From the NCBI RefSeq assembly GCF_000092205.1, contig NC_014216.1, positions 1,369,742 through 1,433,741 on the forward strand: a DNA stretch of 64,000 nt, read 5' to 3'. The DNA is from Desulfurivibrio alkaliphilus AHT 2 (GTDB lineage: Bacteria; Desulfobacterota; Desulfobulbia; Desulfobulbales; Desulfurivibrionaceae). Both the position numbers and the translations under genes were made by a program. This document shows, one piece after another, positions 4,363 to 60,157 of the stretch (position 1 is the stretch's first letter; each line of letters opens with the position of its first letter). The notes beneath the pieces are model-generated. The model had not been told where the DNA came from, did no database searches, and worked only from the letters and a program-made list of their open reading frames with translations.

Positions 4363-4471
4363 GTAAGCGGTCACGGGGTGCCCCAGATTGCGGCAAGCAG
4401 ACCGGCGCCGCGTACCTCAGTACGTAAGCCGGGCTGATCGCCGCAAGATGGGGTGCCCCGTGGCCGCTTAC
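4363..4471 (+). repeat. GTAA-hairpin element, type A, between rng and the radical-SAM gene
   Basis: A 109-bp imperfect palindrome from GTAAGCGGTCACGG to its complement. The arms contain the type-A blocks cacggggtgcccc, ttgcgg and accggc, with the conserved internal loop caag opposite atcg. The lead module is reduced to GTAACGC just before it (4356-4362). No convincing 8-bp duplication is seen. The right end supplies the TAA stop codon (4468-4470) of the radical-SAM gene on the minus strand. Confidence 0.85.
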
Positions 4472-7014
4472 GGCCGGGACCATAATTTCATCACCCGGGC
4501 TGCGGCCAACTGTTCCGGTTCCGGGGCGCAGGCGGCGGCTACCACTTCCAGGGGTTTTACCGTCGGCCGGCCGGCTTCCTGGACCATCACCAGCTCAAGT
4601 TCGCCGGGCGCCCGCAGGGCAAACTCCTTTACCACCGGACGAATATCCAGGGTGCGCGCCGCCCCTTTGCGGCGTACCGTCATAACAAATTCTTTAGCAG
4701 CCAGCAAGGCCGACGGCGCCCCGGGGTCGATTTTCCCAGGCAAGCTGATCCGGTAGGAGCTGAGCAGGCTTGGCGGTTGTTGCCGCCCTCCCGGCTCCAG
4801 CAAGAGCACCCGCAGGCCGGCAGGCAACTGCCGGTTCAACTCCTCTTTGGCCGCCGGCAAGTCGGTAAGCGGCGCCGTCAGCTCCAGCCAGAGAAACTCA
4901 TCCTGGCTTTCGGTGCCCAGCGGCAGTGCCGGGCCGAAGGATACCTTGGGCGAGGGGTTGAAGCCCTGACTGAAGGCCAGCGGCCAGCCGGCCCGGCGCA
5001 GGGCCCGGAAAAAGACCTGCAGCACCTCCAAGTGCCCCAGGAAACGGGCCTCCCCCAGCCGGGAATAACGCAGGCGATAACCAATCCCCACCTCCGGCCG
5101 CGCCATCTGATGCGCCCCCTCCTGTTCCGCGGCCTCCCGCCGCCCCCCGGAGTCGCCGGCATCCTGGCCAGTGGTGGCCTCCGGCCGGCGAAAAACCACC
5201 GGCTTAACGGTTTTGAAATCGCACAACCCGCATTTACTGCAACCGTGCAACCGGCAGTCGGGGGTATACTCTTCAGCCAGGGCCCGCTGATATTCCGCCG
5301 CCAGAAATTTCCGGCTCACCCCGGCATCCAGGTGGTCCCAGGGCAAAGGCTCCTCCGGCTCCCGGCGCCTGAGATAGCTATCGAGATCAAGACCCAAAGC
5401 GGCGGCGGCGGCCTGCCAACGCTCCAGGTTGAAATGGTCGGACCAGGCGTCCAGCCGGGCGCCATCCCGCCAGGCCCGCTCCACCAGCGCGGCAAGGCGC
5501 CGATCTCCCCGGCAGAAAACCCCCTCCAGGTAACTTTGGCGCGGATCATGCCATTTGAGTTTGAATTTTTTGTGCCGCAGCTGCTGCTTTAAAAAGTCAA
5601 TGCGGGCAAAGCCCTGCTCTATCGACAGTTGGGGCTCCCGCTCGAAGGGGGTGTGGGGCTTGGGGACAAAGACGGCGCTGCTCACCGTTACCTGGCAGCG
5701 GCCGGCCGGCCCGGTTTTTAATACCTTATGGGCCAACTCGACGATGGCCGCCAGGTCTTCTTCGGTTTCGGTGGGCAGCCCGAACATGAAGTAAAGCTTG
5801 ATCAACTTCCAGCCCAGCCCAAAGGCGCTGCGGCTAGCGGCCAGCAGATCTTCCTCGCTGATTCCCTTGTTGATCACCCGGCGCAACCGATCGCTGCCCG
5901 CCTCCGGGGCCAGGGTGAAGCCGGTCTTGCGCACCCGCTTGATCTGCTCCATCATCTCCGGGGTCAGGGACCCCACCCGCATGGAGGGGAGAGAGACGGA
6001 AACCCGGCGGCGTTCCAGGGCATCCATCAGTTGCCCCAGCAGTTCGTTGATACAGGCATAATCACCGCTGCTCAAGGAGAGCAGGGCCACCTCTTCAAAA
6101 CCGGTCTGTTCAATTTTACCCAGAATTTCCTGCAAAACCCGGGATGGCTCTCGCTCCCGCACCGGCCGGTAGATAACCCCGGCCTGGCAGAAGCGGCAGC
6201 CCCGGGTACAGCCCCGGGCGATCTCCACCCCCAAGCGGTCATGCACCACCCGGGTGGCCGGCACCAGCGGGGCAACGGCATGATCCACCTGTTCCAGGTC
6301 GGCCAGCACCCGGCGGCGAACCGGCGGCAAATCGGGCCGCCGGGCTTCGGTGCCGAGAAAACGGCCCGCCTGGTCATAACGGGGGGCAAAAAAGGAAGGT
6401 ACATAAACCCCCGGCACCGCTGCCAGAGCCGCCAGGATCTGCCCCCGGGCCAGCTTTTGCTCCCTGCCCCGCTGCACCACCGCCAGCATTGCCGGCAGGG
6501 CCTCCTCGCCGTCGCCCAATAAAACGGCATCAAAAAAATCGGCCACCGGCTCGGGGTGGAAGGCACAAGGACCACCTCCGAACACCAGGGGCTGATCTTC
6601 AGTGCGCTCTTCAGCGCGCAAAGGCAGCCCGGCCAGATCGAGGATGGTCAGGATATTGGTATAGCAGAGCTCATAGGGCAGGCTGATCCCCAGCACGTCA
6701 AATTCGCCCAGGGGACGGCGGGATTCCAGGGAAAACAGGGGCAGCCCGGCCTCGCGCAGGGCCTGTTCCAGATCAAGATCCGGGGCATAGACCCGTTCTG
6801 CCAGCCATTCCGGCCGGGCGTTGACCAGGTGGTAGAGAATCTGCAGACCCTGATGGGACATGCCGATTTCGTAAAGATCGGGAAAGGCCAGGGCCAGGCG
6901 CAGGCGGGCCTGCTGCCAGTCTTTCCTGACCACATTGAATTCGTTGGCGCAATAACGCCCGGGTCGGTTGACCCGGGACAACAGGGCATCGATATCCATA
7001 AAAATATTTACCAT
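4468..7014 (-). CDS. B12-binding radical SAM protein fused to a DUF2344-type domain
   Basis: The 848 residues combine a cobalamin-binding-like N-terminal domain, a radical SAM core with the CxxxCxxC cluster (RGCTRGCRFC, C269/C273/C276), a Cys-rich segment around residue 590 (CRLHGCSKCGLC), and a C-terminal domain of about 220 residues (RYSRLGEARFLGHLE...) of the TIGR03936/DUF2344 type. Such fusions (TIGR03960 plus TIGR03936) are commonly next to rng and are thought to modify RNA or ribosomal components; the reaction is not known to me. An alternative ATG at 6999 (MDIDALLSRV) matches the usual family start; neither start has a strong Shine-Dalgarno. The stop codon lies inside the adjacent repeat element. 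Confidence 0.87.
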   Translation of the reverse strand: MVNIFMDIDALLSRVNRPGRYCANEFNVVRKDWQQARLRLALAFPDLYEIGMSHQGLQILYHLVNARPEWLAERVYAPDLDLEQALREAGLPLFSLESRRPLGEFDVLGISLPYELCYTNILTILDLAGLPLRAEERTEDQPLVFGGGPCAFHPEPVADFFDAVLLGDGEEALPAMLAVVQRGREQKLARGQILAALAAVPGVYVPSFFAPRYDQAGRFLGTEARRPDLPPVRRRVLADLEQVDHAVAPLVPATRVVHDRLGVEIARGCTRGCRFCQAGVIYRPVREREPSRVLQEILGKIEQTGFEEVALLSLSSGDYACINELLGQLMDALERRRVSVSLPSMRVGSLTPEMMEQIKRVRKTGFTLAPEAGSDRLRRVINKGISEEDLLAASRSAFGLGWKLIKLYFMFGLPTETEEDLAAIVELAHKVLKTGPAGRCQVTVSSAVFVPKPHTPFEREPQLSIEQGFARIDFLKQQLRHKKFKLKWHDPRQSYLEGVFCRGDRRLAALVERAWRDGARLDAWSDHFNLERWQAAAAALGLDLDSYLRRREPEEPLPWDHLDAGVSRKFLAAEYQRALAEEYTPDCRLHGCSKCGLCDFKTVKPVVFRRPEATTGQDAGDSGGRREAAEQEGAHQMARPEVGIGYRLRYSRLGEARFLGHLEVLQVFFRALRRAGWPLAFSQGFNPSPKVSFGPALPLGTESQDEFLWLELTAPLTDLPAAKEELNRQLPAGLRVLLLEPGGRQQPPSLLSSYRISLPGKIDPGAPSALLAAKEFVMTVRRKGAARTLDIRPVVKEFALRAPGELELVMVQEAGRPTVKPLEVVAAACAPEPEQLAAARVMKLWSRP

Positions 7015-7964: not shown

Positions 7965-8118
7965 GTAACTGTTCACGGGATACCCCCTGCGTGACGATCT
8001 TCCAAGGAGTAAGCGGTCACGGGGCACCCCAGATTGCGGCAAGCAGACCGGCGCAGCGTACACCGGGTACTCAAGCCGGGCTGATCGCCGCAAGGTGGGG
8101 TGCCCCGTGATCGCTTAC
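7965..8118 (+). mobile_element. GTAA-hairpin MITE, type A, with exact 8-bp target duplication
   Basis: Full copy of 154 bp: lead module starting GTAACTGTTCACGGG (7965) and hairpin 8009-8118 (GTAAGCGG...CGCTTAC). It is flanked by the exact 8-bp direct repeat GCCATCAT at 7957-7964 and 8119-8126. The repeat holds the lipoprotein start codon on one side and the TPR-gene stop codon on the other. Removing the element and one repeat restores an ATGA overlap between the two genes. The lead module is shared with the copy at 47833-48002 (ataccccctgcg, gacgatcttccaa). Confidence 0.9.
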
Positions 8119-8122
8119 GCCA

Positions 8123-9925: not shown

Positions 9926-10097
9926 GTAATCGTTCAGCCGCACCGCATCTTCGGGCGATCAGCCAGGCTTACGGAGGGGACAGTTTTAAAAACTGTCCCC
10001 GATTACGCTGCACCTGGCTGCTTGCCCGAACCTGCGGCACTGCTGAACGATTACAGCCCGTTATACCTGCAGGTTAGTACCCCCGGTAAACGGTTAC
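9926..10097 (-). mobile_element. GTAA-hairpin MITE, type B, with nested palindrome and 7/8-bp target duplication
   Basis: Inverted orientation relative to the copy at 17593. Hairpin 9926-10054 with type-B arms (cgttcag, ttcggg, gccagg blocks), followed by the lead module to GGTTAC at 10097. Flanking direct repeats are CATCGTTG (9918-9925) and CATTGTTG (10098-10105). The tip is replaced by a palindrome with GGGGACAGTTTT arms (9976-10000). Its end supplies the tmk stop codon; without the element tmk would stop one codon earlier. Confidence 0.88.
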
Positions 10098-17543: not shown

Positions 17544-17582
17544 GTAAATGTTCTGCAGTTATTGGCCCTGGTGAACGCTTAC
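17544..17582 (-). repeat. Internally deleted 39-bp derivative of the GTAA element
   Basis: Starts GTAAATGTTCTGCA and ends TGGTGAACGCTTAC, so both ends match the termini of the full element (GTAA-GTTCA type) while the hairpin is missing. It lies 10 bp left of the full copy at 17593-17743, in opposite orientation. No 8-bp duplication was found around it. Confidence 0.55.
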
Positions 17583-17592
17583 TGTTATCAAG

Positions 17593-17743
17593 GTAACCGT
17601 TCACCAAGGGTATTAACTTACCGGTCTAACGGGCCGTAATCGTTCAGCAGTGCCGCAGATTCGGGTAAGCAGCCAGGCGCCGCGTACACCGGGTACTCAA
17701 GCCTGGCTGATCGCCCGAAGGTGCGGTGCTGCTGAACGATTAC
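17593..17743 (+). mobile_element. GTAA-hairpin MITE, type B, with exact 8-bp target duplication
   Basis: Best reference copy, 151 bp. Lead module GTAACCGTTCACCAAGGG... (17593-17635) and hairpin 17636-17743 (GTAATCGTTCAGCAG...CTGCTGAACGATTAC). It is flanked by exact TTATCAAG at 17585-17592 and 17744-17751. The hairpin arms pair over about 45 bp, with a conserved internal loop (taag opposite atcg). It sits in the divergent region between ffh and the secreted protein gene. Confidence 0.92.
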
Positions 17744-17767
17744 TTATCAAGCAAGCGAGGTAAAGCC

Positions 17768-29966: not shown

Positions 29967-30075
29967 GGAAAACGTTCAGCAGTGCCGCAGCTTGCGGCAA
30001 GCGGACCGGCGCCGCGTACATCAGTACGCAAGCCGGGCCGATCGCCGCAAGATGCGGTGCTGCTGAACGTTTTCC
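29967..30075 (+). repeat. GTAA-hairpin element, hybrid arms, hairpin only
   Basis: Imperfect palindrome from GGAAAACGTTCAGCAG to its complement CTGCTGAACGTTTTCC. Outer stem is type B (gttcagcag) and inner stem is type A (ttgcgg, accggc). The usual GTAA/TTAC ends have changed to GAAA/TTTC on both sides, keeping the pairing. No lead module or target duplication is visible. The last base overlaps the TAG stop of the MotE-like gene. Confidence 0.82.
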
Positions 30076-37407: not shown

Positions 37408-38928
37408 TTAAAGAGAGCCTTGGTTGCGATACTCATTGAGTTTGTTGCGCAGGGTGCGCACACTGATTCCCAGCATTTTCGCGGCATGGGTACGATTGTC
37501 ATCGGTCTGCCGCAGGGCCTGCAGAATCATCTGCCGCTCCACCTCACGCAGACTGCGCCCGGCCAGGGCGCTATCAAGGGTCGCGGCCGAATCGGGCGAG
37601 CCGGAGGCCTCTGCTGCAACCGCCTCGGTGGCAACCGTGGGCGGTGAGGCCTCCGGCTCGGCAGCATCGACGGGCTCGGCGTCGGCCGGCCCCGAAGGTT
37701 CCGGAAGCTCCGCTGACGCTGCCGGTTCCGGGGGCAGTTCATCATCCCAGAAGTCCCAGAGTTCCAGCTCATCACCATTGCTGAGCAGCACCCCCCGCTC
37801 CAGCAGATTTTCCATCTCCCGCACATTACCCGGCCAGTCGTAGTCAAGAAAACGCTGCCGGGCGGCGGCGGAGAGCTTTTTCAAGGGCTTGTTGTAGCGC
37901 CGGCTGTGTTTTTCAATAAAGAAATCCGCCAGCAGAAAGATATCATCGGGGCGCTCCCGCAGGGAGGGCAGGCGAATGGGGATAACATTGAGGCGGTAAT
38001 AGAGATCCTGGCGAAAGGTGCCATCTTTCACCGCTTCGGCCAAGTCACGGTTGGTGGTGGCCACCACATGCACGTCCACCTTGACCGGCTCCTTGCCGCC
38101 CAGCCGATCCACCTCCTCTTCCTGCAGCACCCGCAACAGCTTGGCCTGCAGATGCAGGGGCACTTCCCCGATTTCATCCAGCAGCAGGGTGCCGCCGTGG
38201 GCCAGTTCAAACTTGCCTTTTTTGGCCATCACCGCCCCGGTAAAGGCCCCCTTTTCATGCCCGAACAATTCGCTTTCCAGCAAGCCCTCCGGCAGGGCGG
38301 CACAGTTCAGGGCGACGAAAGGACCGGCCTTGCGATCGGAAACATGATGGATAAAGCGGGCAAAGACCTCTTTGCCGGTGCCTGATTCCCCCAGCACCAG
38401 GACCGTGGCCTTACTGGAAGCCACCGTCCGGGCCCGTTCCAGCAGCCGCAGAAAGTGGCGGTCGCGGCCGATCACCGTGCGGGACCCTTCATCGGTCCGA
38501 CCCGGCGGCGGCGAGCCGGTTTCGGCGGCCGGAGCAACGGCAGCCGGGCGCGGCTGCTGGCGCATAACCTTTTTGATGGTCTCTTCGATCACCTCAACCG
38601 GGAAAGGCTTGAGAATGTAATCCACCGCCCCCTGCTTCATGGCCTCCACCGCCGTCTCCACGGTGGCATACCCGGTGATGATCACCACCGGCAGGCCGGG
38701 CCGGACGGCCTGGATTTGCTGCAGCATGGCAATACCATCCATCTCCGGCATCCGGATATCGGTGACCACCAGGTCGGGGGCTTCGCTTTCCACCATCTCC
38801 AGGGCCATGCGCCCGTTTTCCGCCACCTTGACCTCGTAACCGCCACGGCTCAAGGCCTCGTAGAGGGCAACACGCATATTCTGTTCGTCGTCAACAACCA
38901 GTATTTTTCGGCCCATCGCGCCCATCAT
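37408..38928 (-). CDS. NtrC-type sigma-54 response regulator (FlrC/FleR-like)
   Basis: The 506 residues consist of a receiver domain (KILVVDDEQN, phospho-acceptor Asp in VVTDIRMPEMDG, LKPF), an AAA+ domain with GESGTGKE, the sigma-54 contact loop GAFTGA and the R-finger region, a Pro/Ala/Glu-rich linker of about 80 residues, and a Fis-type helix-turn-helix (NRTHAAKMLGISVRTLRNKLNEY). Context next to flgB and a sigma-54 promoter points to a class of flagellar regulator like FlrC or FleR. The linker before the DNA-binding domain is unusually long. ATG 38928 follows AGGA. Confidence 0.9.
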   Translation of the reverse strand: MMGAMGRKILVVDDEQNMRVALYEALSRGGYEVKVAENGRMALEMVESEAPDLVVTDIRMPEMDGIAMLQQIQAVRPGLPVVIITGYATVETAVEAMKQGAVDYILKPFPVEVIEETIKKVMRQQPRPAAVAPAAETGSPPPGRTDEGSRTVIGRDRHFLRLLERARTVASSKATVLVLGESGTGKEVFARFIHHVSDRKAGPFVALNCAALPEGLLESELFGHEKGAFTGAVMAKKGKFELAHGGTLLLDEIGEVPLHLQAKLLRVLQEEEVDRLGGKEPVKVDVHVVATTNRDLAEAVKDGTFRQDLYYRLNVIPIRLPSLRERPDDIFLLADFFIEKHSRRYNKPLKKLSAAARQRFLDYDWPGNVREMENLLERGVLLSNGDELELWDFWDDELPPEPAASAELPEPSGPADAEPVDAAEPEASPPTVATEAVAAEASGSPDSAATLDSALAGRSLREVERQMILQALRQTDDNRTHAAKMLGISVRTLRNKLNEYRNQGSL

Positions 38929-40027: not shown

Positions 40028-42135
40028 TGAGCAAACAGGCTCTGCATCTCGGCCGTGGCCAGGTTGATTTCCAACTGGTTAAGATAGTTTTGGGCCATCC
40101 GGGCATACATCTGGTCGGGGCCGGCAATGGCGGCCTGCAAGTGCTCCCGGGCCGTCTCGGCCTCCCGGCGCTCGGCCAGCAGGCGACCGAGATACAAGTT
40201 GGCGGCCTGGTAATCCGGACCCGCCGTCGGCAGACCCTCGGCCAGAGCGTTTTGGTACGCGGCTTCAGCCTGCTCGCTCAGGCCCTGGCGGCGCAAACCA
40301 TCTCCGGTGCGGCGGAACCAGCGCTGCAAACCCTCGGGCTCCAGCCACTGCTCTTCCTGAAACCGCGCCATAACCCGGTTCATTTCCGCAAACCTGGCCA
40401 GGGCTTCCAGGGTAGCCAGGTAATTTCCGGCATGGGCGGCGCGCCGGCGTTCGGGAGGTTTCTGGGCAAAGGCCTGGCGATAAAACTCCAGGGCTTCATC
40501 ATAACGAAATTCAGCGGCTCGCAACCGGCCGCTGAGGTAATAAACCTCCGGCATCTCCGGCTCCCCGTCGTAAATCCGGCGCAGGTGCGCCAGCAGCCGG
40601 TCGGCGGTATCATAATCGGCCATGGCGAAATAGACCTCCACCCGGCGATAATAAAGATCAACCAGTTCTTCCCGGCTCATTTCGCCGGCCAGCGCCCGGT
40701 AATAGACCACCGCCGCCTGCGGGTAAAGGGCCAGCTCTTCCAAGGCCTGGCCGATCAGATAACGCAAGCGACCGGGTTCATAGGCGACCACATGGGGAAA
40801 TTCATTGAGATACAGTTGGTAGACCCGCTGATACTCCTCTTCCGCCAGCAGGGCCTCGACCAGGAAAACCAGCAGGTCGCCGGCCCGGTTGACCCCGGTG
40901 AGGGGATCCGGCCCCGGCTCGGCATGGCGCACATAACTGCGGGCCATCTCCCGCGCCAGGGTCTGGTCGTCGCGCTCCAGGTGACGCCGATACAGTGCGT
41001 AACGGGCATCATTGGCAATGGCTTCATGGCCGAACCGCTCGATCACCTGGTAGAAAACAGCATCGGTCTCCGGCCCCGGCACCTCTCGCCGGGTGGCAGT
41101 ATCATCGGGCCGGCGCCTGGCCTTATCCTGGTATTCAGCCAGCCGAAAGCGCGCCAGCAGCACGGCCCGTTCCCCGGGACTCCCTTCTTCCAGGATCCGG
41201 TTGTACAGGCGCCGCGCTGTTTCATGCTCGCCCTGGCGCCGCCGGCTTTCCCCCAGTTCAAATAGCGCCTCGGGCCGACGCGGCGAGTCCGGGGCCAGGT
41301 TGATAAAGGAAAAAACCTGCTGATACCCTTCCTGCTCGCGGCCGACCCGAAAATAAGCCTGCCCCAGCAGCAGCAAGAATTCAGGGTTTTGCAGGTGATA
41401 CTCCTCCGGCGCCACCCGTTGCAACTCCTGGAAGGTGGCTAAAGCCTCCCAGTAAGCCCCTTGCTGGTCGTACGCCAGCCCCAGGTTGGTCATGACCTCC
41501 AGCCGAAAAGCCAGCTCCGGCTCTTCGGTGAGTTCCTTGAAAATCTCGATGGCCTCATCCACCCTGGCCACTTCAATCAGGGTACGGGCCTGCCAGTGGC
41601 GGGCCCGGGGCACCAGTTCCGAATCTGGGTAGCGCTCGACAAAGAGGCGGAAATAGGTAAGGGCTTCACGCAGAAAGCGCATCTTGAAGTGAGCGATTCC
41701 CATCTCCAGGTAGGCCTCTTCCGCCTGCGGGGAGTCGGGGTATTCCACCGTGAAACGGCGAAAAAGATCTCTAATGCGTTCCCAGTCGGGATCGGGTTCG
41801 GTGGCGGCGATTTTCTTGCGCAGCGTGGCCGCCCGCCAGAGGGCCTCCTCGGCAAAGGGGGAAGTCGGGTGCTCGCGATGCAGGCGTTCAAAGTCGATGG
41901 CCGCCCGCCGCCAATCTTCACGCTCGGCCGCGCCGACGGCGCTCTGCCACAACTCCTGGCCCGCAGCGGCCGCCGCCTGGTGCGGAACCGTCAGCACCAG
42001 GCAGAGCACCACCGGCAGCAGCACCAGCAACCATTTAAGCCGGTCTTTCAACGCCAGCGGGCGCCCGGCTCTCTCTGGAGTCACGGCCAGAAGCCACCGC
42101 CTGGCCACTCTGCCCCGGCGTGCTGGCCTAAACAT
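40024..42135 (-). CDS. Large TPR-repeat protein of flagellar cluster
   Basis: A 703-residue protein with a basic N-terminus and one membrane anchor (LKWLLVLLPVVLCLVLTVP) that may be a signal peptide. The rest is TPR/Sel1-like helical repeats (SPFAEEALWRAATLRKK, SPQAEEAYLEMGIAHFKMRFLREAL, SELVPRARHWQARTL) of the BamD/YbgF kind, so it is likely periplasmic. The start ATG overlaps the stop of the sigma-54 activator gene and the stop overlaps the kinase start, so the four genes are translationally chained. The role is unknown; the position argues for flagellar assembly or envelope sensing. Confidence 0.8.
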   Translation of the reverse strand: MFRPARRGRVARRWLLAVTPERAGRPLALKDRLKWLLVLLPVVLCLVLTVPHQAAAAAGQELWQSAVGAAEREDWRRAAIDFERLHREHPTSPFAEEALWRAATLRKKIAATEPDPDWERIRDLFRRFTVEYPDSPQAEEAYLEMGIAHFKMRFLREALTYFRLFVERYPDSELVPRARHWQARTLIEVARVDEAIEIFKELTEEPELAFRLEVMTNLGLAYDQQGAYWEALATFQELQRVAPEEYHLQNPEFLLLLGQAYFRVGREQEGYQQVFSFINLAPDSPRRPEALFELGESRRRQGEHETARRLYNRILEEGSPGERAVLLARFRLAEYQDKARRRPDDTATRREVPGPETDAVFYQVIERFGHEAIANDARYALYRRHLERDDQTLAREMARSYVRHAEPGPDPLTGVNRAGDLLVFLVEALLAEEEYQRVYQLYLNEFPHVVAYEPGRLRYLIGQALEELALYPQAAVVYYRALAGEMSREELVDLYYRRVEVYFAMADYDTADRLLAHLRRIYDGEPEMPEVYYLSGRLRAAEFRYDEALEFYRQAFAQKPPERRRAAHAGNYLATLEALARFAEMNRVMARFQEEQWLEPEGLQRWFRRTGDGLRRQGLSEQAEAAYQNALAEGLPTAGPDYQAANLYLGRLLAERREAETAREHLQAAIAGPDQMYARMAQNYLNQLEINLATAEMQSLFAQ

Positions 42136-43201
42136 CTTCCGGGCCGTTGAGGCGATAGCGTTTCATCTTCTCCAGCAGGGTGGTACGGTTAACGTTGAGC
42201 AGCTTGGCTGCCCGATTTTTGACCCAGCCGGTCTGTTCCATGGCCTGGACAATCAGTCTTTTTTCAAACTCGGCCACCACCTCGCTCAAGACAAAGCCGG
42301 CCGGAGGGATCGGCCCCGCCGCGACCGTAGGCAAATCAGCTTGCGCCGCGGGGCCGGGGCTTTCCTGCCCCGCCGGCGCCGCACCCATCCCGGCCAGCAG
42401 GCGTTCGGGGATATCCTCCCGCCCCAACTCACGCCCGGCGGCCAGAATCACCATCCGCTCCACGGTGTTTTCCAGCTCCCGGACATTACCCGGCCAAGGG
42501 TAACGCTGCAGGCAATCCAGGGCCTCGGGCTTGATGCCCCGGATCTTCTTCCTGCGGTTGACATTGAAACGGGCGATGAAATGCTCCACCAGTAAAGGGA
42601 TGTCCGAGATCCGCTCCCGCAGGGGCGGAGCATCGACGGGAATGACATTGAGGCGGTAATAGAGGTCCTCCCTGAACCGCCCCTCTTTGACCTCGTGCTC
42701 CAGGTCCCGGTTGGTGGCCGCCACCACCCGAAAATCCGAACTGATGGTGCGGGTCCCCCCCACCCGTTCAAACTTTTTCTCCTGCAAAACCCGCAGCAGC
42801 TTCACCTGCAACATGGGGCTCATCTCGGCAATTTCATCCAGGAAGACCGTGCCGCCGTGGGCCAACTCAAAGCGGCCGGGGCGAGAACGCACCGCGTGGG
42901 TAAAGGCCCCCCGCTCGTGGCCGAAGAGTTCGCTTTCCAACAACTCCGCCGGGATGGCCCCGCAGTTGACGGCGATAAAGGGCCCCCGGCCGCGCCCCCC
43001 TTCCTGGTGCAAAGCCTGGGCCACCAGCTCTTTGCCGGTACCCGACTCGCCCCTGACCAGGACGGTGGTGTCGGCGTCGGCAACTTTGCGGATCAACACA
43101 AAAACCTGTCGGATCCGTTCACTGGTGCCGACGATGGCCGCGCAACCCTGCGCTTCTTCCCGCTCCCGGCACTGATTTCCGTCAGCTTGTTTTAACGCCA
43201 T
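42128..43201 (-). CDS. Sigma-54-dependent activator without receiver domain
   Basis: The 357 residues start directly with an AAA+ domain (VGTSERIRQVFVLIRKV, Walker A GESGTGKE, Walker B GGTVFLDEIAEM) and end with a Fis-type HTH (VKNRAAKLLNVNRTTLLEKMKRYRL). The sigma-54 contact loop reads GAFTHA rather than GAFTGA (His102, codon 42896-42898). No receiver domain, as in FleQ/FlrA-type masters that respond to other signals. It heads the regulatory block; ATG 43201 follows GGAGGG. It could be the master regulator of the flagellar genes or of another sigma-54 regulon. Confidence 0.87.
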   Translation of the reverse strand: MALKQADGNQCREREEAQGCAAIVGTSERIRQVFVLIRKVADADTTVLVRGESGTGKELVAQALHQEGGRGRGPFIAVNCGAIPAELLESELFGHERGAFTHAVRSRPGRFELAHGGTVFLDEIAEMSPMLQVKLLRVLQEKKFERVGGTRTISSDFRVVAATNRDLEHEVKEGRFREDLYYRLNVIPVDAPPLRERISDIPLLVEHFIARFNVNRRKKIRGIKPEALDCLQRYPWPGNVRELENTVERMVILAAGRELGREDIPERLLAGMGAAPAGQESPGPAAQADLPTVAAGPIPPAGFVLSEVVAEFEKRLIVQAMEQTGWVKNRAAKLLNVNRTTLLEKMKRYRLNGPEDV

Positions 43202-44935: not shown

Positions 44936-46210
44936 ATGCCGGCAAGCAAGCACAGGATCGGCCTGAGCAACGATTGCGGGATGGTTGCAGCACTGCGCCG
45001 CTTCCCCCTGCGCACCCTGCTGCCCCTTTGTTTGCTGCTGCTTTTAAGCTGCCCGCTGAACGGCTTTGCCGCGGCCGATGAAACGGCCGATGAAGAGCAG
45101 CAAAAACTCGAGTCGTTGCGCCGCAACCTGGCAGAGCAGGAAGATCGTCTGGCCGCCGCCCGGGCCAGAGCCGAGGAGCTGCTGGCGGAACTGGCCGACT
45201 TGGACCGGCAGGTGGAACAGCAACAGACGGAACTGGCCACCCTCAGCCGGCACCTTGAAGAACACCAACAGACCAGAGCGCAGAAACAGGATCAACTGGC
45301 CCAGCTTAAAGCTGCCCACGAGCGAGCCGGGAAAAAAGTACAGCGTCGCCTCACGGCCGCCTACCAGACCGGGGAAGTGGCCATTCTCAACATCCTTTTC
45401 AGTGCCGAAAGCCTGCCTGACCTGCTGGAACTGCAGGATTATTTCCACTTTCTCCGGGAGCACGACCAGACTCTGATCAACGGCTATCGCGACCAGATCG
45501 CCACCCTGCAAGAGGCCCGGCAACACCTGGCCCAACTGGAAGAGGCGCTGCTGGCCGACAAGGCCATGGTCAAGAACCGGGAAGAGCAGCTCCAAGCTAC
45601 CCGCCGGGAACAGGCCGAGGTGCTGCGCCGGGTGCAAAACCAGCAACGGTTGCACCAGCAAGCCCAGCAGGAAATCAGCAAAGCCGTGGATCTGCTGGCC
45701 ATTGCCCTCACCGCTACCCTGACCGACCAGTCCAAACGGGTACCGGGAAGCGAGGGGGCCACGGCCCCTTCCCCGACCCCAACACCAGGCACCGGGGAGG
45801 ATGATTTTGCCAACCTGCGAGGCCTCGTCCGCTGGCCGGTTGAGGGCAAGGTGATCACCGGATTCGGGCAGACCATCCGGGGTCCGCTTGGGGAGGTTGG
45901 CGAAAGCCGCGGCATTATCATTAAAACCGACATCGGCGCGCCCGTAAGAGCCCTGGCCGCCGGCACCGTGGCCCATGTGGGGGAAATGCCCGGTTACGGC
46001 AAAATGATCATCGTTAATCATGGGCAGCGCTATTTCAGCCTGCTGGCCGGGCTGGCCGAAATCAACTCCCGGGAGGGCGCCCCGGCACGGCCGGGGCAGA
46101 TCATGGGCACCACCGCCGCAGCCGGTGGCGCTGAAGGCCGGCTTTACCTGGAGATCCGTCAGGGGGTCCAGACCCTGGATCCCATGGAATGGCTGCAAGA
46201 CAACCGGTAA
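44936..46210 (+). CDS. envC: EnvC-like murein hydrolase activator
   Basis: The 424 residues have a signal peptide (LRTLLPLCLLLLLSCPLNGFA), a long coiled coil (about 50-260) that binds FtsX, and a LytM/M23 domain at about 300-420. The M23 zinc ligands are missing: the HxxxD region reads SRGIIIKTD and the HxH region reads GRLYLEI, so it is a non-catalytic activator like E. coli EnvC, not a peptidase. The stop TAA is inside a decayed repeat element (46207 on). Coupled to ftsEX. Confidence 0.9.
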   Translation: MPASKHRIGLSNDCGMVAALRRFPLRTLLPLCLLLLLSCPLNGFAAADETADEEQQKLESLRRNLAEQEDRLAAARARAEELLAELADLDRQVEQQQTELATLSRHLEEHQQTRAQKQDQLAQLKAAHERAGKKVQRRLTAAYQTGEVAILNILFSAESLPDLLELQDYFHFLREHDQTLINGYRDQIATLQEARQHLAQLEEALLADKAMVKNREEQLQATRREQAEVLRRVQNQQRLHQQAQQEISKAVDLLAIALTATLTDQSKRVPGSEGATAPSPTPTPGTGEDDFANLRGLVRWPVEGKVITGFGQTIRGPLGEVGESRGIIIKTDIGAPVRALAAGTVAHVGEMPGYGKMIIVNHGQRYFSLLAGLAEINSREGAPARPGQIMGTTAAAGGAEGRLYLEIRQGVQTLDPMEWLQDNR

Positions 46211-46300
46211 GCGGTCACGGGGTGCGCATCTTGTGGCGATCAAACCCGGCTTGTGTACTGATGTACGCGGCACCGAGCCGGTACCACCCATGACCGGGCC
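46207..46300 (+). repeat. Decayed GTAA-hairpin element after envC
   Basis: Begins GTAAGCGGTCACGGGGTG, the start of the type-A hairpin, and later shows diverged inner parts (gtggcgatcaaacccgg, gtactgatgtacgcggcaccgagccgg). The right arm is eroded and no TTAC end is found. It supplies the envC stop codon. Confidence 0.6.
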
Positions 46301-47832: not shown

Positions 47833-48002
47833 GTAACTGAGAATACCCCCTGCGAGACGATCTTCCAAAGAGTAAGCGGCCACGGGGCACCCCAGATTGC
47901 GGCAAGCAGACCGGCGCAGCGTAATCGGGGACAGTTTTCAAAACTGTCCCCTCCTCAAGCCGGGCTGATCGCCGCAAGGTGGGGTGCCCCGTGATCGCTT
48001 AC
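47833..48002 (+). mobile_element. GTAA-hairpin MITE, type A, with nested palindrome, cutting the end of the fumarase gene
   Basis: Lead module from GTAACTGAGAATACC (47833) and hairpin 47872-48002. Direct repeats GCGACGGT (47825-47832) and GCGGCGGT (48003-48010) flank it. The tip carries a 24-bp GGGGACAGTTTT-type palindrome at 47927-47950. It lies inside the 3' end of the fumarase beta gene and replaces its original last codons. Confidence 0.88.
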
Positions 48003-48566
48003 GCGGCGGTAGAAATCGTTGCCGGCCAGGTCGTTGATCACCACCGCCGGAAAGTTTTCCACCTCGAAACGGAACATGGCTTCGGCTCCGGCATCGGCAA
48101 AAGCCACCAGTTCGCTTTTGCGGATGCAGCGGGAGAGCAGGGCACCGGCCCCGCCGATGGTGGCCAGATAAATGGCCCCATGGGCCAGCATGGCTTGGCG
48201 CACCTCCTCCGAGCGAGGGCCTTTCCCCATGGTGGCCGTCAGCCCCAACTCCAGTAACCGGGGAGTATAGGCGTCCATCCGATAACTGGTGGTGGGGCCG
48301 GCGGCTCCGATTACCCGGCCCGGCAGAGCCGGCGTCGGGCCCACGTAGTACAGCAGTTGCCCCCGCAGGTCCACCGGCAAAGGGCGCCCTTCATCAAGCA
48401 GCGCGCAGAGGCGCCGGTGGGTTTGATCCCGCCCGGTGTAGAGCACACCACTCAAACTTACCAGTTCCCCGGCCTTAAGTTCGGCCACCACGGCAGGATT
48501 AAACGGCACCTCCACCCGGCGCAACTGTTGCAAAAACTGGGAAACAGGGGATATCTTCGGCATCAT
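47955..48566 (-). CDS. Fumarate hydratase class I, beta (C-terminal) subunit
   Basis: Second subunit of the oxygen-sensitive iron-sulfur fumarase (interconverts fumarate and malate). The 203 residues include GELVSLSGVLYTGRDQTHRRL, GPTPALPGRVIGAAGPTTSYRMD and KGPRSEEV, the catalytic swivel-domain pattern. ATG 48566 follows GAGG. The last 15 residues (VSDHGAPHLAAISPA) come from an inserted repeat element; without it the protein would end ...FYRRN. Partner alpha gene is directly upstream, separated by another copy of the element. Confidence 0.9.
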   Translation of the reverse strand: MMPKISPVSQFLQQLRRVEVPFNPAVVAELKAGELVSLSGVLYTGRDQTHRRLCALLDEGRPLPVDLRGQLLYYVGPTPALPGRVIGAAGPTTSYRMDAYTPRLLELGLTATMGKGPRSEEVRQAMLAHGAIYLATIGGAGALLSRCIRKSELVAFADAGAEAMFRFEVENFPAVVINDLAGNDFYRRVSDHGAPHLAAISPA

Positions 48567-48592: not shown

Positions 48593-48743
48593 GTAAGCGT
48601 TCACCAAGGGCACTAACCTACCGGTTTAACGGGCTGTAACCGAACAGCCGTGCCGCAGGTTCGGGTAAGCAACCAGGCGCGGCGTACCCCCTGTACGTAA
48701 GCCTGGCTGATCGCCCGAAAATGCGGTGCGGCTGTTCGATTAC
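48593..48743 (+). mobile_element. GTAA-hairpin MITE, type B, with exact 8-bp target duplication
   Basis: Lead module GTAAGCGTTCACCAAGGG (48593) and hairpin 48636-48743. Flanked by exact AATTACAG at 48585-48592 and 48744-48751. The repeat on the right contains the stop codon of the fumarase alpha gene. It separates the two fumarase genes, originally about 20 bp apart. Confidence 0.92.
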
Positions 48744-53757: not shown

Positions 53758-53909
53758 TTAACCGCTCACCAAGAGCAAATGACTTAACCAGACAACGGGC
53801 TGTAAACGTTCAGCGGTGCCGCAGGTTGCGGCAAGCGAACCGGCGCCGCGTACCTCAGGTACGCAAGCCGGGTCGATCGCCGCAAGATGCGGTGCTGCTG
53901 GACGTTTAC
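53758..53909 (+). mobile_element. GTAA-hairpin MITE at the ruvA/ruvB junction with 7/8-bp target duplication
   Basis: Starts TTAACCGCTCACCAAG (53758, first base changed from G) and has a hybrid hairpin 53802-53909: outer type B (cgttcagcgg) and inner type A (ttgcgg, accggc). Flanked by GATTCATA (53750-53757) and GATTCATG (53910-53917). On the minus strand both copies read ATGAATC: one is the ruvA stop (TGA), the other the ruvB start (ATG). The element therefore cut an ATGA overlap without damaging either gene. Confidence 0.9.
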
Positions 53910-53912
53910 GAT

Positions 53913-54560
53913 TCATGCCAAGGACCTCAAGGCTTGCCGCAACAACTCTTCCACCGGCAGTTCAAGGGAGACATCGGCAGCCGACCGCAGACCCTCCAGC
54001 GCCGCCCGGGCCTGGGAAGCCGGGTAGCCGAGGTTAAGAAGGGCGGAATAGGCGTCCTGAAAGGAAGGTTCATTGAAGTCGGCGGCGGCCGCCGAGGAGG
54101 GAGAAAGCGCGGCACCCGGCCCGACGACGGTACCAGCATCGGTGGTGGCCGTGGGAAAGAATTCCATTTTGTCGCCCAATTCCAGGCACAGTCGTTCGGC
54201 GGTTTTTTTCCCCACCCCGGGCAATTTTTTCAGAAAAACAATATCGCCGGCGATGATCGCCCGGCTCAGGGCAGCGGGCTCGGCGGCGGCGAGAATATTC
54301 ATGGCCAACCGCGGCCCCACCCCGGAAACCCCCAACAGCAGCTGAAACATTCTCTTCTCGCGACTATCGGGAAAGCCGTAAAGATTGAAGGAGTCCTCCC
54401 GGACCACGGTCTGAATATACAAAAAAAGCTCTTCGCCGACGGCCGGCAGGCGATCATGGCGGGAGGCGGGCAGAAAAACCTCATACCCTACGCCGCCCAC
54501 CTGGAGCACCAGACTGTCCGGCCCTTTATGGGCCAGTTTTCCCTGCAAAGAAGCAATCAC
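53913..54560 (-). CDS. ruvA: Holliday junction DNA-binding subunit RuvA
   Basis: Tetrameric junction-binding protein. The 215 residues have the OB-fold domain I (MIASLQGKLAHKGPDSLVLQVGGVGYEVFLP), helix-hairpin-helix motifs (LLGVSGVGPRLAMNIL, LKKLPGVGKKTAERLCLEL) and a C-terminal domain that binds RuvB (FQDAYSALLNLGYPASQARAALEGL). Its stop is at the edge of the element. Order ruvC-ruvA-ruvB is typical. Confidence 0.96.
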   Translation of the reverse strand: MIASLQGKLAHKGPDSLVLQVGGVGYEVFLPASRHDRLPAVGEELFLYIQTVVREDSFNLYGFPDSREKRMFQLLLGVSGVGPRLAMNILAAAEPAALSRAIIAGDIVFLKKLPGVGKKTAERLCLELGDKMEFFPTATTDAGTVVGPGAALSPSSAAAADFNEPSFQDAYSALLNLGYPASQARAALEGLRSAADVSLELPVEELLRQALRSLA

Positions 54561-56601: not shown

Positions 56602-56752
56602 GTAAGCGAACAGCCGCACCGCATCTTCGGGCGATCAGCCAGGCTTACGTACAGAGGGTACGCTGCGCCTGGCTGCTTGCCCGAACCTGCGGCACGGCTG
56701 TTCGCTTACGGCCCGTGAGACCGGCAGCTTAGGACCCCTGGTGAACGGTTGT
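56602..56752 (-). mobile_element. GTAA-hairpin MITE, type B, overlapping the end of rsmI
   Basis: Hairpin 56602-56709 (GTAAGCGAACAGCCG...CGGCTGTTCGCTTAC) followed by the lead module to about 56752 (GGTGAACGGTTGT). No duplication remains, so it is probably an older insertion. Outer stem sequence differs from other type-B copies on both arms in matching ways. The lead module is read as the last seven codons and stop of rsmI. Confidence 0.85.
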
Positions 56753-58808: not shown

Positions 58809-60008
58809 GTGTCGACCCCCCCGAACACCACCCCCGAGAGCCACCTGCACCAGGACGTGCACCTGGTCAGCCTGGCCGGCCGGCAGATTTTTCTGATCGG
58901 CACCGCCCATGTCTCTCAAGAATCCGCCGACCTGGTTCACCAGGTCATAGACGAGTTGCGCCCTGATGCGGTCTGCCTGGAACTGGACGAAAAGCGCTAT
59001 CAATCTTTGGCCCACCGCAAAAAATGGGAACTGCTGGACCTCAAGGAAATTATGCGGCGCCGCCAGTTGGCCACCCTGTTGATCAACCTGCTGCTGGCCT
59101 CTTACCAGAAGAAGCTGGGCGACAAGCTGGGGGTGCAGCCGGGCAGCGAGTTGCTAAACGCCGCCCGCCAGGCGGAAGAGCTTAATATCCCCGTAGCGCT
59201 TTGCGACCGGGACGTCCGGATCACCATGCGCCGGGCCTGGCGGGCCACTCCCTGGTATCGCAAGATGATGCTGCTGGCCACCCTGCTGGCCGGCATGTTC
59301 GACCGCAGCGAAATCAGCGAGGCCGATCTGCGGGAGTTGCGCAACACCGACCTGCTCTCCGAGCTGATGGCCCAGCTGGGCCGGGAGCTGCCGGAGCTCA
59401 AAGAGGTGCTCATCGACGAGCGCGACACCTATCTGGCGGAAAAAATCAAGGCCACCAGCGGAGACAAGCTGGTGGCGGTGGTCGGGGCCGGCCATGTGGC
59501 CGGCTTGAAAAAAGCCCTCGCCCAGGACCGGCAGGAGCAAATGGCGACCATCAGCCGGATTCCGCCGGCCGCCAAAACCTGGAAAGCCCTGGCCTGGGCG
59601 GTACCGGCAATAATCTTGAGTGCACTGGCCTATATTGCCATCAGCAAGGGTATGGCCGTGGCCGGCCAGAATCTGATTTACTGGATTTTAGCCAACGGCA
59701 TTCCCGCCGCCATCGGCGCGGCTTTGGCTCTGGCCCATCCCCTGACCATTGCCGGGGCCTTTGTCGCCGCGCCGGTAACCAGCCTGACCCCGGTGATCGG
59801 GGCCGGTTACGTCACCGCCTTTCTCCAGGCCAATTTTCGCCCCCCCCTGGTGGTGGAATTTGAGCGCGTCCTGGATGACATGAACAGCCTGGGGGGCTGG
59901 TGGCGCAATCGCCTGCTGCGTATTTTTCTGGCCTTCATCCTGCCGGCCATCGGCAGCATGATCGGCACATGGGTCGGCGGCTACGAGATCCTTTCCAACG
60001 TTTTTTAG
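58809..60008 (+). CDS. TraB/PrgY family membrane protein
   Basis: The 399 residues contain the TraB-family motifs LIGTAHVSQESADLV, AVCLELDEKRY and VVGAGHVAGLKKAL, which place it in the TraB/GumN (Tiki-like) fold, possibly a metallopeptidase. Several membrane helices follow (KALAWAVPAIILSALAYIAI, LIYWILANGIPAAIGAALALA, LTIAGAFVAAPVTSLTPVIGAGYVTAF, IFLAFILPAIGSMIGTWVGG). GTG 58809 follows AGGA. Substrate unknown; founding members turn down pheromone signals. The G of its TAG stop belongs to the inserted repeat. Confidence 0.85.
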   Translation: MSTPPNTTPESHLHQDVHLVSLAGRQIFLIGTAHVSQESADLVHQVIDELRPDAVCLELDEKRYQSLAHRKKWELLDLKEIMRRRQLATLLINLLLASYQKKLGDKLGVQPGSELLNAARQAEELNIPVALCDRDVRITMRRAWRATPWYRKMMLLATLLAGMFDRSEISEADLRELRNTDLLSELMAQLGRELPELKEVLIDERDTYLAEKIKATSGDKLVAVVGAGHVAGLKKALAQDRQEQMATISRIPPAAKTWKALAWAVPAIILSALAYIAISKGMAVAGQNLIYWILANGIPAAIGAALALAHPLTIAGAFVAAPVTSLTPVIGAGYVTAFLQANFRPPLVVEFERVLDDMNSLGGWWRNRLLRIFLAFILPAIGSMIGTWVGGYEILSNVF

Positions 60009-60157
60009 TAAACGTTCAGCCGCACCGCATCTTCGGGCGATCAGCCAGGCTTACGTACAGGGGTACGCGGCGCCTGGCTGCTTGCCCGAACCTGCGGCAC
60101 GGCTGAACGTTTACGGCTCGTTAAACCGCCAGGTTAGTACCCTTGGTGAAAGCTTAT
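60008..60157 (-). mobile_element. GTAA-hairpin MITE, type B, after the TraB-family gene
   Basis: Hairpin 60008-60114 (GTAAACGTTCAGCCG...) followed by the lead module to about 60157 (ctttcaccaaggg read on the minus strand). Flanking sequences GTTTTTTA (60000-60007) and TTTTTTTA (60157-60164) look like a duplicated T-rich target, but the T run makes the exact boundary uncertain by one base. Confidence 0.82.

Follow-up and report, generated by a model that had tools for sequence, protein, structure and literature searches.

The window, a 64,000-nt stretch of the Desulfurivibrio alkaliphilus AHT 2 genome (bases 1369742–1433741 of a single contig), carries a 108-nt hairpin on its plus strand at 17636–17743. 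The contig measures 3,097,763 bp, the genome length published for this strain (PMC5016858). As read directly from the letters, the hairpin is exactly the one described in a first-pass annotation of this DNA. Its paired part consists of three long stems, interrupted by two internal loops (2x2 and 3x3) and a tandem wobble. The left side of the 22-bp outer stem, which is supported by the fold and by covariation, occupies 17636–17657 and pairs with 17722–17743; within it, the tandem T.G/G.T wobble lies at 17651–17652 opposite 17727–17728. The 2x2 internal loop (17658–17659 opposite 17720–17721) leads into a second stem (17660–17666 paired with 17713–17719), followed by a 3x3 internal loop of AAG against ATC (17667–17669 opposite 17710–17712) and a third stem (17670–17678 paired with 17701–17709). 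In the folded structure the apical region, 17679–17700, contains a short GTAC/GTAC stem. The plus strand is predicted to fold at −77 kcal/mol (z = −11) and the minus strand at −69.5 kcal/mol, and the minus strand was the less stable one in 153 of 156 hairpin copies.

A 43-bp left arm precedes the hairpin on the same strand at 17593–17635. It starts with an IS66-like end, GTAACCGTTCACC, and is conserved 5' of most copies. The arm and hairpin together are bounded by two directly read copies of an 8-bp target-site duplication, TTATCAAG, at 17585–17592 and 17744–17751. A remnant left arm ending in GTAA adjoins this copy on the minus strand at 17571.

Ten hairpin copies and one degenerate copy were found in the window by blastn and inspection. 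The first-pass annotation had divided the copies into types A and B by matched stem segments and had reported matched outer-stem variants (cgttcag, cgaacag and cggtcac); these segments and variants proved to be real. Type A copies lie on the plus strand at 4363–4473 and at 8010–8120, the latter without the wobble (GGGGCACC/GGTGCCCC). Type B copies with a CGAACAG outer stem are present at 48636–48743 (plus strand, left arm at 48593–48635) and at 56602–56709 (minus strand). Another type B copy on the minus strand, 60008–60114, shares bases with the stop codon of the plus-strand gene that ends at 60008. The copy at 29967–30075 (plus strand) joins type B outer to type A inner stems, and the mixed-type copy at 53802–53909 (plus strand) is separated by 3 bp from the stop codon of a gene on the minus strand, 53913–54560. 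These two had been taken for hybrids; their mixed segments are genuine, but the combination is a recurrent subfamily genome-wide rather than a one-off event. The degenerate copy is an inverted type A copy with a GTAAGCGGTCACGGGGTGCG end at 46207–46285 (also delimited near 46207–46274).

Two copies of different type, the type B copy at 9926–10054 (minus strand) and the type A copy at 47873–48004 (plus strand), contain one and the same additional palindrome, GGGGACAGTTTT...AAAACTGTCCCC, in the apex at matching positions. Elsewhere in the window, direct repeats 4660 bp apart (37408–38928 and 42128–43201) encode paralogous proteins in which a ESELFGHEKGAFTGA motif, typical of sigma-54 activators, was recognized by eye.

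A dispersed repeat family with a 151-bp mobile unit

A structure model gave at least 150 hairpin matches in the D. alkaliphilus genome, and the overall number is at least about 160 copies. A sequence-only nhmmer search of the stretches around the listed copies returned 167 places, some of them fragments. The two sets had 149 copies in common, all with identical strand, and nhmmer gave 18 further places, several of them fragments. This agreement rules out bias of the structure-model search as the source of the pattern. Other Desulfobulbales genomes contain from 4 to about 150 copies each, and among the matches listed in a core-pattern search of GTDB contigs, almost all were from Desulfobulbales.

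The internal loop and tandem wobble had been claimed to persist in nearly all copies. Genome-wide, the wobble was retained in 141 of 156 copies in D. alkaliphilus and in nearly all copies in other genera, while the AAG/ATC loop was retained in 117 of 142 copies. The 2x2 loop is GA/GA in most other genera. The second stem occurs as matched variants, including TTCGGG/CCCGAA, TTGCGG/CCGCAA and TTTGGG/CCCAAA. Old copies can have wholly different outer stems that still pair, for example AAAAACGCG/CGCGTTTTT and CTAAAGTT/AACTTTAG, and recent bursts of near-identical copies are also present. A sublineage of about eight copies in the D. alkaliphilus genome (G000) carries TTTGGTCTTGCAG (e.g. at 1535003, 1934641 and 1585054); here TGGTCTTGC spans stem 2 (left side) and the 3x3 loop, and one pair is broken. 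In the fragmented assembly of a congener (G003), many contigs, including C9, C64, C65 and C69, begin or end within the repeat, which indicates that the repeat breaks assemblies.

The extent of the mobile unit was obtained by comparing the 8 bp 3' of each hairpin with every upstream offset. A single sharp peak was observed at offset 43, with an exact 8-bp match in 35 of 149 D. alkaliphilus copies (chance, about 0.002) and at least seven of eight positions matching in 50 of 149. The transposed unit, left arm (43 bp) and hairpin (108 nt) together, is therefore 151 bp long and is flanked by an 8-bp target duplication. No target-site motif was evident among 49 exact duplications. The unit is short and non-coding with terminal inverted repeats, GTAACCGTTCACC and GTAATCGTTCAGC. 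IS66-family ends start with GTAAGCG and the family generates 8-bp duplications (PMC11946415, PMC3916326); the ends of the unit match the IS66 rule in kind (PMC11946415 for the rule). With its IS66-like GTAA ends and 8-bp duplications, the 151-bp unit is a MITE, and the confidence in this mobile unit is high. Neither the unit nor its duplications had been part of the first-pass annotation.

The mobilizing enzyme may be of IS66 type. The unit ends resemble those of IS66 copies in D. alkaliphilus and one congener, being similar rather than identical. A transposase with matching ends, or an autonomous partner, was not found in the D. alkaliphilus genome or in partial searches of relatives. Matches to the IS66 transposase (PF03050) were detected in G000, G002 and G004, with a fragment in G054; there was no match in the copy-rich G001, G003, G013 and G029, some of which are incomplete assemblies. 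A single element of IS66 type, L031 (G000, 2117721–2121587), has the ends GTAAGCGCTCAGCAAACCCC and GTAAGCGCTCAATGAACCCC. The same genome contains tiny GTAA...TTAC palindromes of 31–37 bp at 1048211, 1580330 and 1583900, as well as left arms followed by hairpins cut at differing points (679359, 2612329, 2787864, 2984624 and 1984789).

Stop-codon placement and conservation in place

With genes called by a simple codon-usage method, 143 of 149 copies were intergenic. In the sequence-only set, 121 of 155 copies point their right hairpin end at the 3' end of a gene on the opposite strand; the stop codon of that gene lies −15 to +12 bp from the hairpin end in 109 of these 121 D. alkaliphilus cases. 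In about a third of these adjoining genes the stop codon is the TAA within the element's own GTAA, and reconstructed empty sites had a native stop at or near the junction. This abutment, also new relative to the first-pass annotation, is assigned with high confidence. The placement recurred in G002 (42 of 46), partly in G013 (17 of 22, without orientation bias) and weakly in the small sample from G029, where orientation bias was absent.

Beside stop codons, G000 and G002 show a strong orientation bias. At tandem-gene loci, antisense orientation prevailed by 71:16, and tandem-gene copies without an ungapped left arm were antisense by 38:0, or 32:2 with gapped arm detection. In this orientation the mRNA of the adjoining gene would carry the minus strand of the element, a further point that had gone unnoticed in the first-pass annotation.

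Private change in the left arm increases with decay of the target duplication, from 0.059 to 0.093 per site, whereas that in the hairpin holds steady at 0.017 to 0.018. A search with the left arm alone gave 56 genome matches at up to three mismatches (control, 0); of these, 51 were followed by a full hairpin, 5 by a truncated one and none by a degenerate one. Selective finding of good hairpins is thus ruled out, since starting from the left arm gives the same picture.

Matching flanks in two Desulfurivibrio genomes defined 13 shared loci, 12 in G002 and 1 in G001. Mean hairpin identity at these loci was 0.88, compared with 0.56 for the adjacent 43 nt and 0.49 for shuffled sequences; the hairpin persists though the adjacent DNA is often randomized. 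At locus 603098, six paired exchanges and two G.U changes separate the species, with zero mismatches. At two shared loci the hairpins occupy the same position but belong to different subtypes, which shows that replacement or renewed insertion takes place too.

Covariation, probable arm copying and strand asymmetry

The first-pass annotation had proposed covariation between the hairpin arms and that it be assessed on all genome copies. Over 24 aligned copies the covariation score was 0.171; shuffles scored 0.062 (0 of 500) and slid structures no more than 0.034. On a FastTree tree of 261 distinct copies from 13 genomes, 182 two-sided coincident changes were counted where 31.5 were expected (null maximum 45 in 300 runs), and parsimony on this tree placed 146 two-sided Watson–Crick exchanges across 30 of 36 pairs. 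The covariation, held with high confidence, stands above the phylogenetic null by which functional structured RNA is tested; nevertheless, arm copying yields the same signal.

Private G.U and A.C changes and tree events were counted in the three long stems only; private is relative to the sampled copies, and such changes may predate insertion. Private changes comprised 48 two-sided against about 100 one-sided events, a two-sided frequency too high for independent mutation; the unpaired arm had about 0.06 change per site. Transitions and transversions among two-sided changes numbered 24:24 and 28:32 in two genomes, compared with 99:89 in the left arm. A stepwise route through G.U intermediates would make transitions dominate, so the equal spectrum speaks for single-step copying. 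Moreover, the 3x3 loop had become fully paired in 12 D. alkaliphilus copies and both wobbles had been converted in 6. Single copies can have long perfect tracts, as in c1945287p. The spectrum of double changes is that of unpaired DNA, and tract conversion is the signature expected of quasi-palindrome correction, which is the probable mechanism. For the most part, two-sided changes resemble the copying of one arm onto the other in a single event.

One-sided changes gave a different picture of the two strands. Private one-sided changes read on the plus strand were G.U rather than A.C by 61:10, 44:9 and 14:2 in three genomes (61:10 or 60:10 for the first, depending on ties in neighbor choice), and tree events over the 261 copies by 179:39. 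One-sided transversions were depleted too. In these copies, equivalent transitions in the left arm, which is unpaired and serves as a control, numbered 46:53. The bias was reversed in no gene context, the counts in the divergent class being only 2:1, and it held for either replication orientation (39:3 and 18:5, origin and terminus being placed by GC skew). It was also kept by copies in which no left arm could be detected (30:4 and 31:8). A mutational strand bias was rejected as the cause because the left arm is unbiased and the bias does not reverse with gene context or replication strand.

Arm copying is blind to this distinction, since G.U and A.C both arise from ordinary duplex base pairs that differ only in which arm changed. 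An excess of G.U on the plus strand is predicted by selection for a single-stranded plus-strand fold, and such selection is proposed here with moderate confidence. Some of the excess could stem from a repair bias.

Interpretation and relation to known systems

The reading favored here, and judged somewhat more probable than not, is that of a MITE-type palindromic repeat family with IS66-type ends that is under structural selection on its plus strand and is also subject to arm correction. The 151-bp non-autonomous unit would insert with an 8-bp target duplication, and the copies that last would be those whose hairpin ends at the stop codon of a neighboring gene transcribed from the opposite strand. 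The left arm and target duplication would then erode while the hairpin is kept at its site. During DNA synthesis the palindrome would correct itself, one arm serving as template for the other to produce a two-sided change in one step. Copies whose plus strand does not fold would be lost and plus-strand G.U pairs tolerated, which would imply use of the plus strand in single-stranded form. Most likely this would be an RNA, either antisense to the adjoining gene or within the 3' UTR of a convergent neighbor; alternatively, the plus DNA strand may fold and serve mobility. Confidence in the identity of the folded molecule and in its job is low. Counting against the favored reading, the mRNA of the known gene would contain the minus strand at most loci, the searches of D. 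alkaliphilus and its relatives gave no transposase with matching ends, and the orientation bias was missing in G013 and the small G029 sample.

The first-pass annotation had offered an RNA fold read from one strand or a protein-bound cruciform, and had regarded gene conversion between arms alone as an explanation that would dispose of both. The one-strand fold agrees with the G.U excess and the unbiased left arm. A cruciform would suit the long palindrome and the internal bulges conserved in both strands, but it is strand-symmetric, G.T in one strand always accompanying A.C in the other, so the bias argues against it and it is considered highly improbable. Arm conversion would account for most two-sided changes and fails for the G.U:A.C ratio. 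Taken as the whole explanation, it would make the family a dead MITE whose arms are matched by quasi-palindrome correction with no single-strand fold selected. The excess of two-sided changes far above independent mutation, their raw mutation spectrum and the multi-base conversions that remove loops and wobble together would all follow. Nevertheless, correction alone predicts equal G.U and A.C leftovers, where about 6:1 was seen, replicated and unreversed by the orientation of transcription or replication, and the conserved loops and tandem wobble, retained from genus to genus, should have disappeared under it. This explanation is judged unlikely.

Selection acting during mobility only, with the plus strand folding as ssDNA or RNA for transposition and resident copies inheriting the pattern, fits the intact target duplications and the recent near-identical bursts. 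It also has precedent in the strand-specific ssDNA hairpins of the IS200/IS605 and integron attC systems. The use of ssDNA hairpins is not known for the DDE transposition route of IS66 type with 8-bp duplications. The bias in copies without a detectable left arm, and the conservation of shared-locus hairpins after the adjacent DNA has been randomized, also count against it, making it distinctly unlikely. A REP-like 3' mRNA element, in which a minus-strand hairpin in the adjoining mRNA stabilizes that mRNA or makes ribosomes stall at the stop codon, would explain why the stop codon lies a few nucleotides from the hairpin in most copies and why armless copies between tandem genes are almost all in one orientation. 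Selection for a minus-strand fold, however, predicts the opposite bias, as that strand has A.C where the plus strand has G.U, and the minus strand is the less stable in nearly every copy. On balance such an element is improbable.

Comparison with known systems set the family apart. No description of it was found in literature searches on IS66 MITEs and stop-codon hairpin repeats, and the repeat family is new. The 127-bp enterobacterial repeat ERIC (IRU, RU-1) is likewise short, palindromic, intergenic and MITE-like; its transcripts form one long stem-loop, and an orientation-dependent effect on mRNA has been reported (PMC2229807). It differs in sequence and hosts, and its ends are TA, unlike the GTAA ends and 8-bp duplications of the D. 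alkaliphilus repeat. No report of a G.U strand bias or of such stop-codon placement was found in the papers covered. Correia/NEMIS, RUP and YPAL/RU-2 are also MITE-type intergenic hairpins (PMC2229807), but belong with other IS types (RUP with IS630-Spn1) or have variable duplications (3–26 bp for YPAL). The end GTAACTGCTCAGCA of ISDge4, a member of the ISBst12 group of the IS66 family, resembles the right end of the repeat, GTAATCGTTCAGCA (PMC12898284); unlike IS66 elements, the repeat has no internal transposase. REP/RAYT systems share the many copies, the hairpin and the location at gene 3' ends. They were rejected because no copies lie beside the two Y1 transposases of the D. alkaliphilus genome and because 8-bp target duplications, not expected for REP/RAYT, are present. 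Dispersed copies that carry 8-bp duplications are at odds with integron attC sites, and inspection by eye showed no attC boxes (RYYYAAC...GTTRRRY) at the hairpin ends. A known Rfam family was likewise rejected; no match in the window exceeded the gathering cut-off, and the weak hairpin matches, mostly to microRNA precursors, scored well beneath it. A possible further comparison is the Desulfotalea-1 RNA motif candidate (Weinberg 2010, PMC2864571), named after Desulfotalea, which the published table queries as an RNA and lists without an Rfam number.

Covariation is the standard proof of RNA structure, and palindromic DNA can mimic it through arm-to-arm copying. In this family the two forces are separable owing to the hundreds of dispersed copies, the unpaired left arm as control and the loci shared between species: arm copying is read from the transition/transversion spectrum of double changes, and fold selection from the G.U:A.C ratio. 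A tentative and more specific proposal, to which less than even weight is given, is that a mobile element of Desulfobulbales has become a structured plus-strand RNA whose tandem wobble and internal loops (GA/GA and AAG/ATC) are conserved and whose arms repair one another, lying antisense at gene 3' ends at about a hundred loci in each genome. Should the folded plus strand prove to be RNA, a conserved antisense structure would lie at the stop codon of about a hundred genes per genome.
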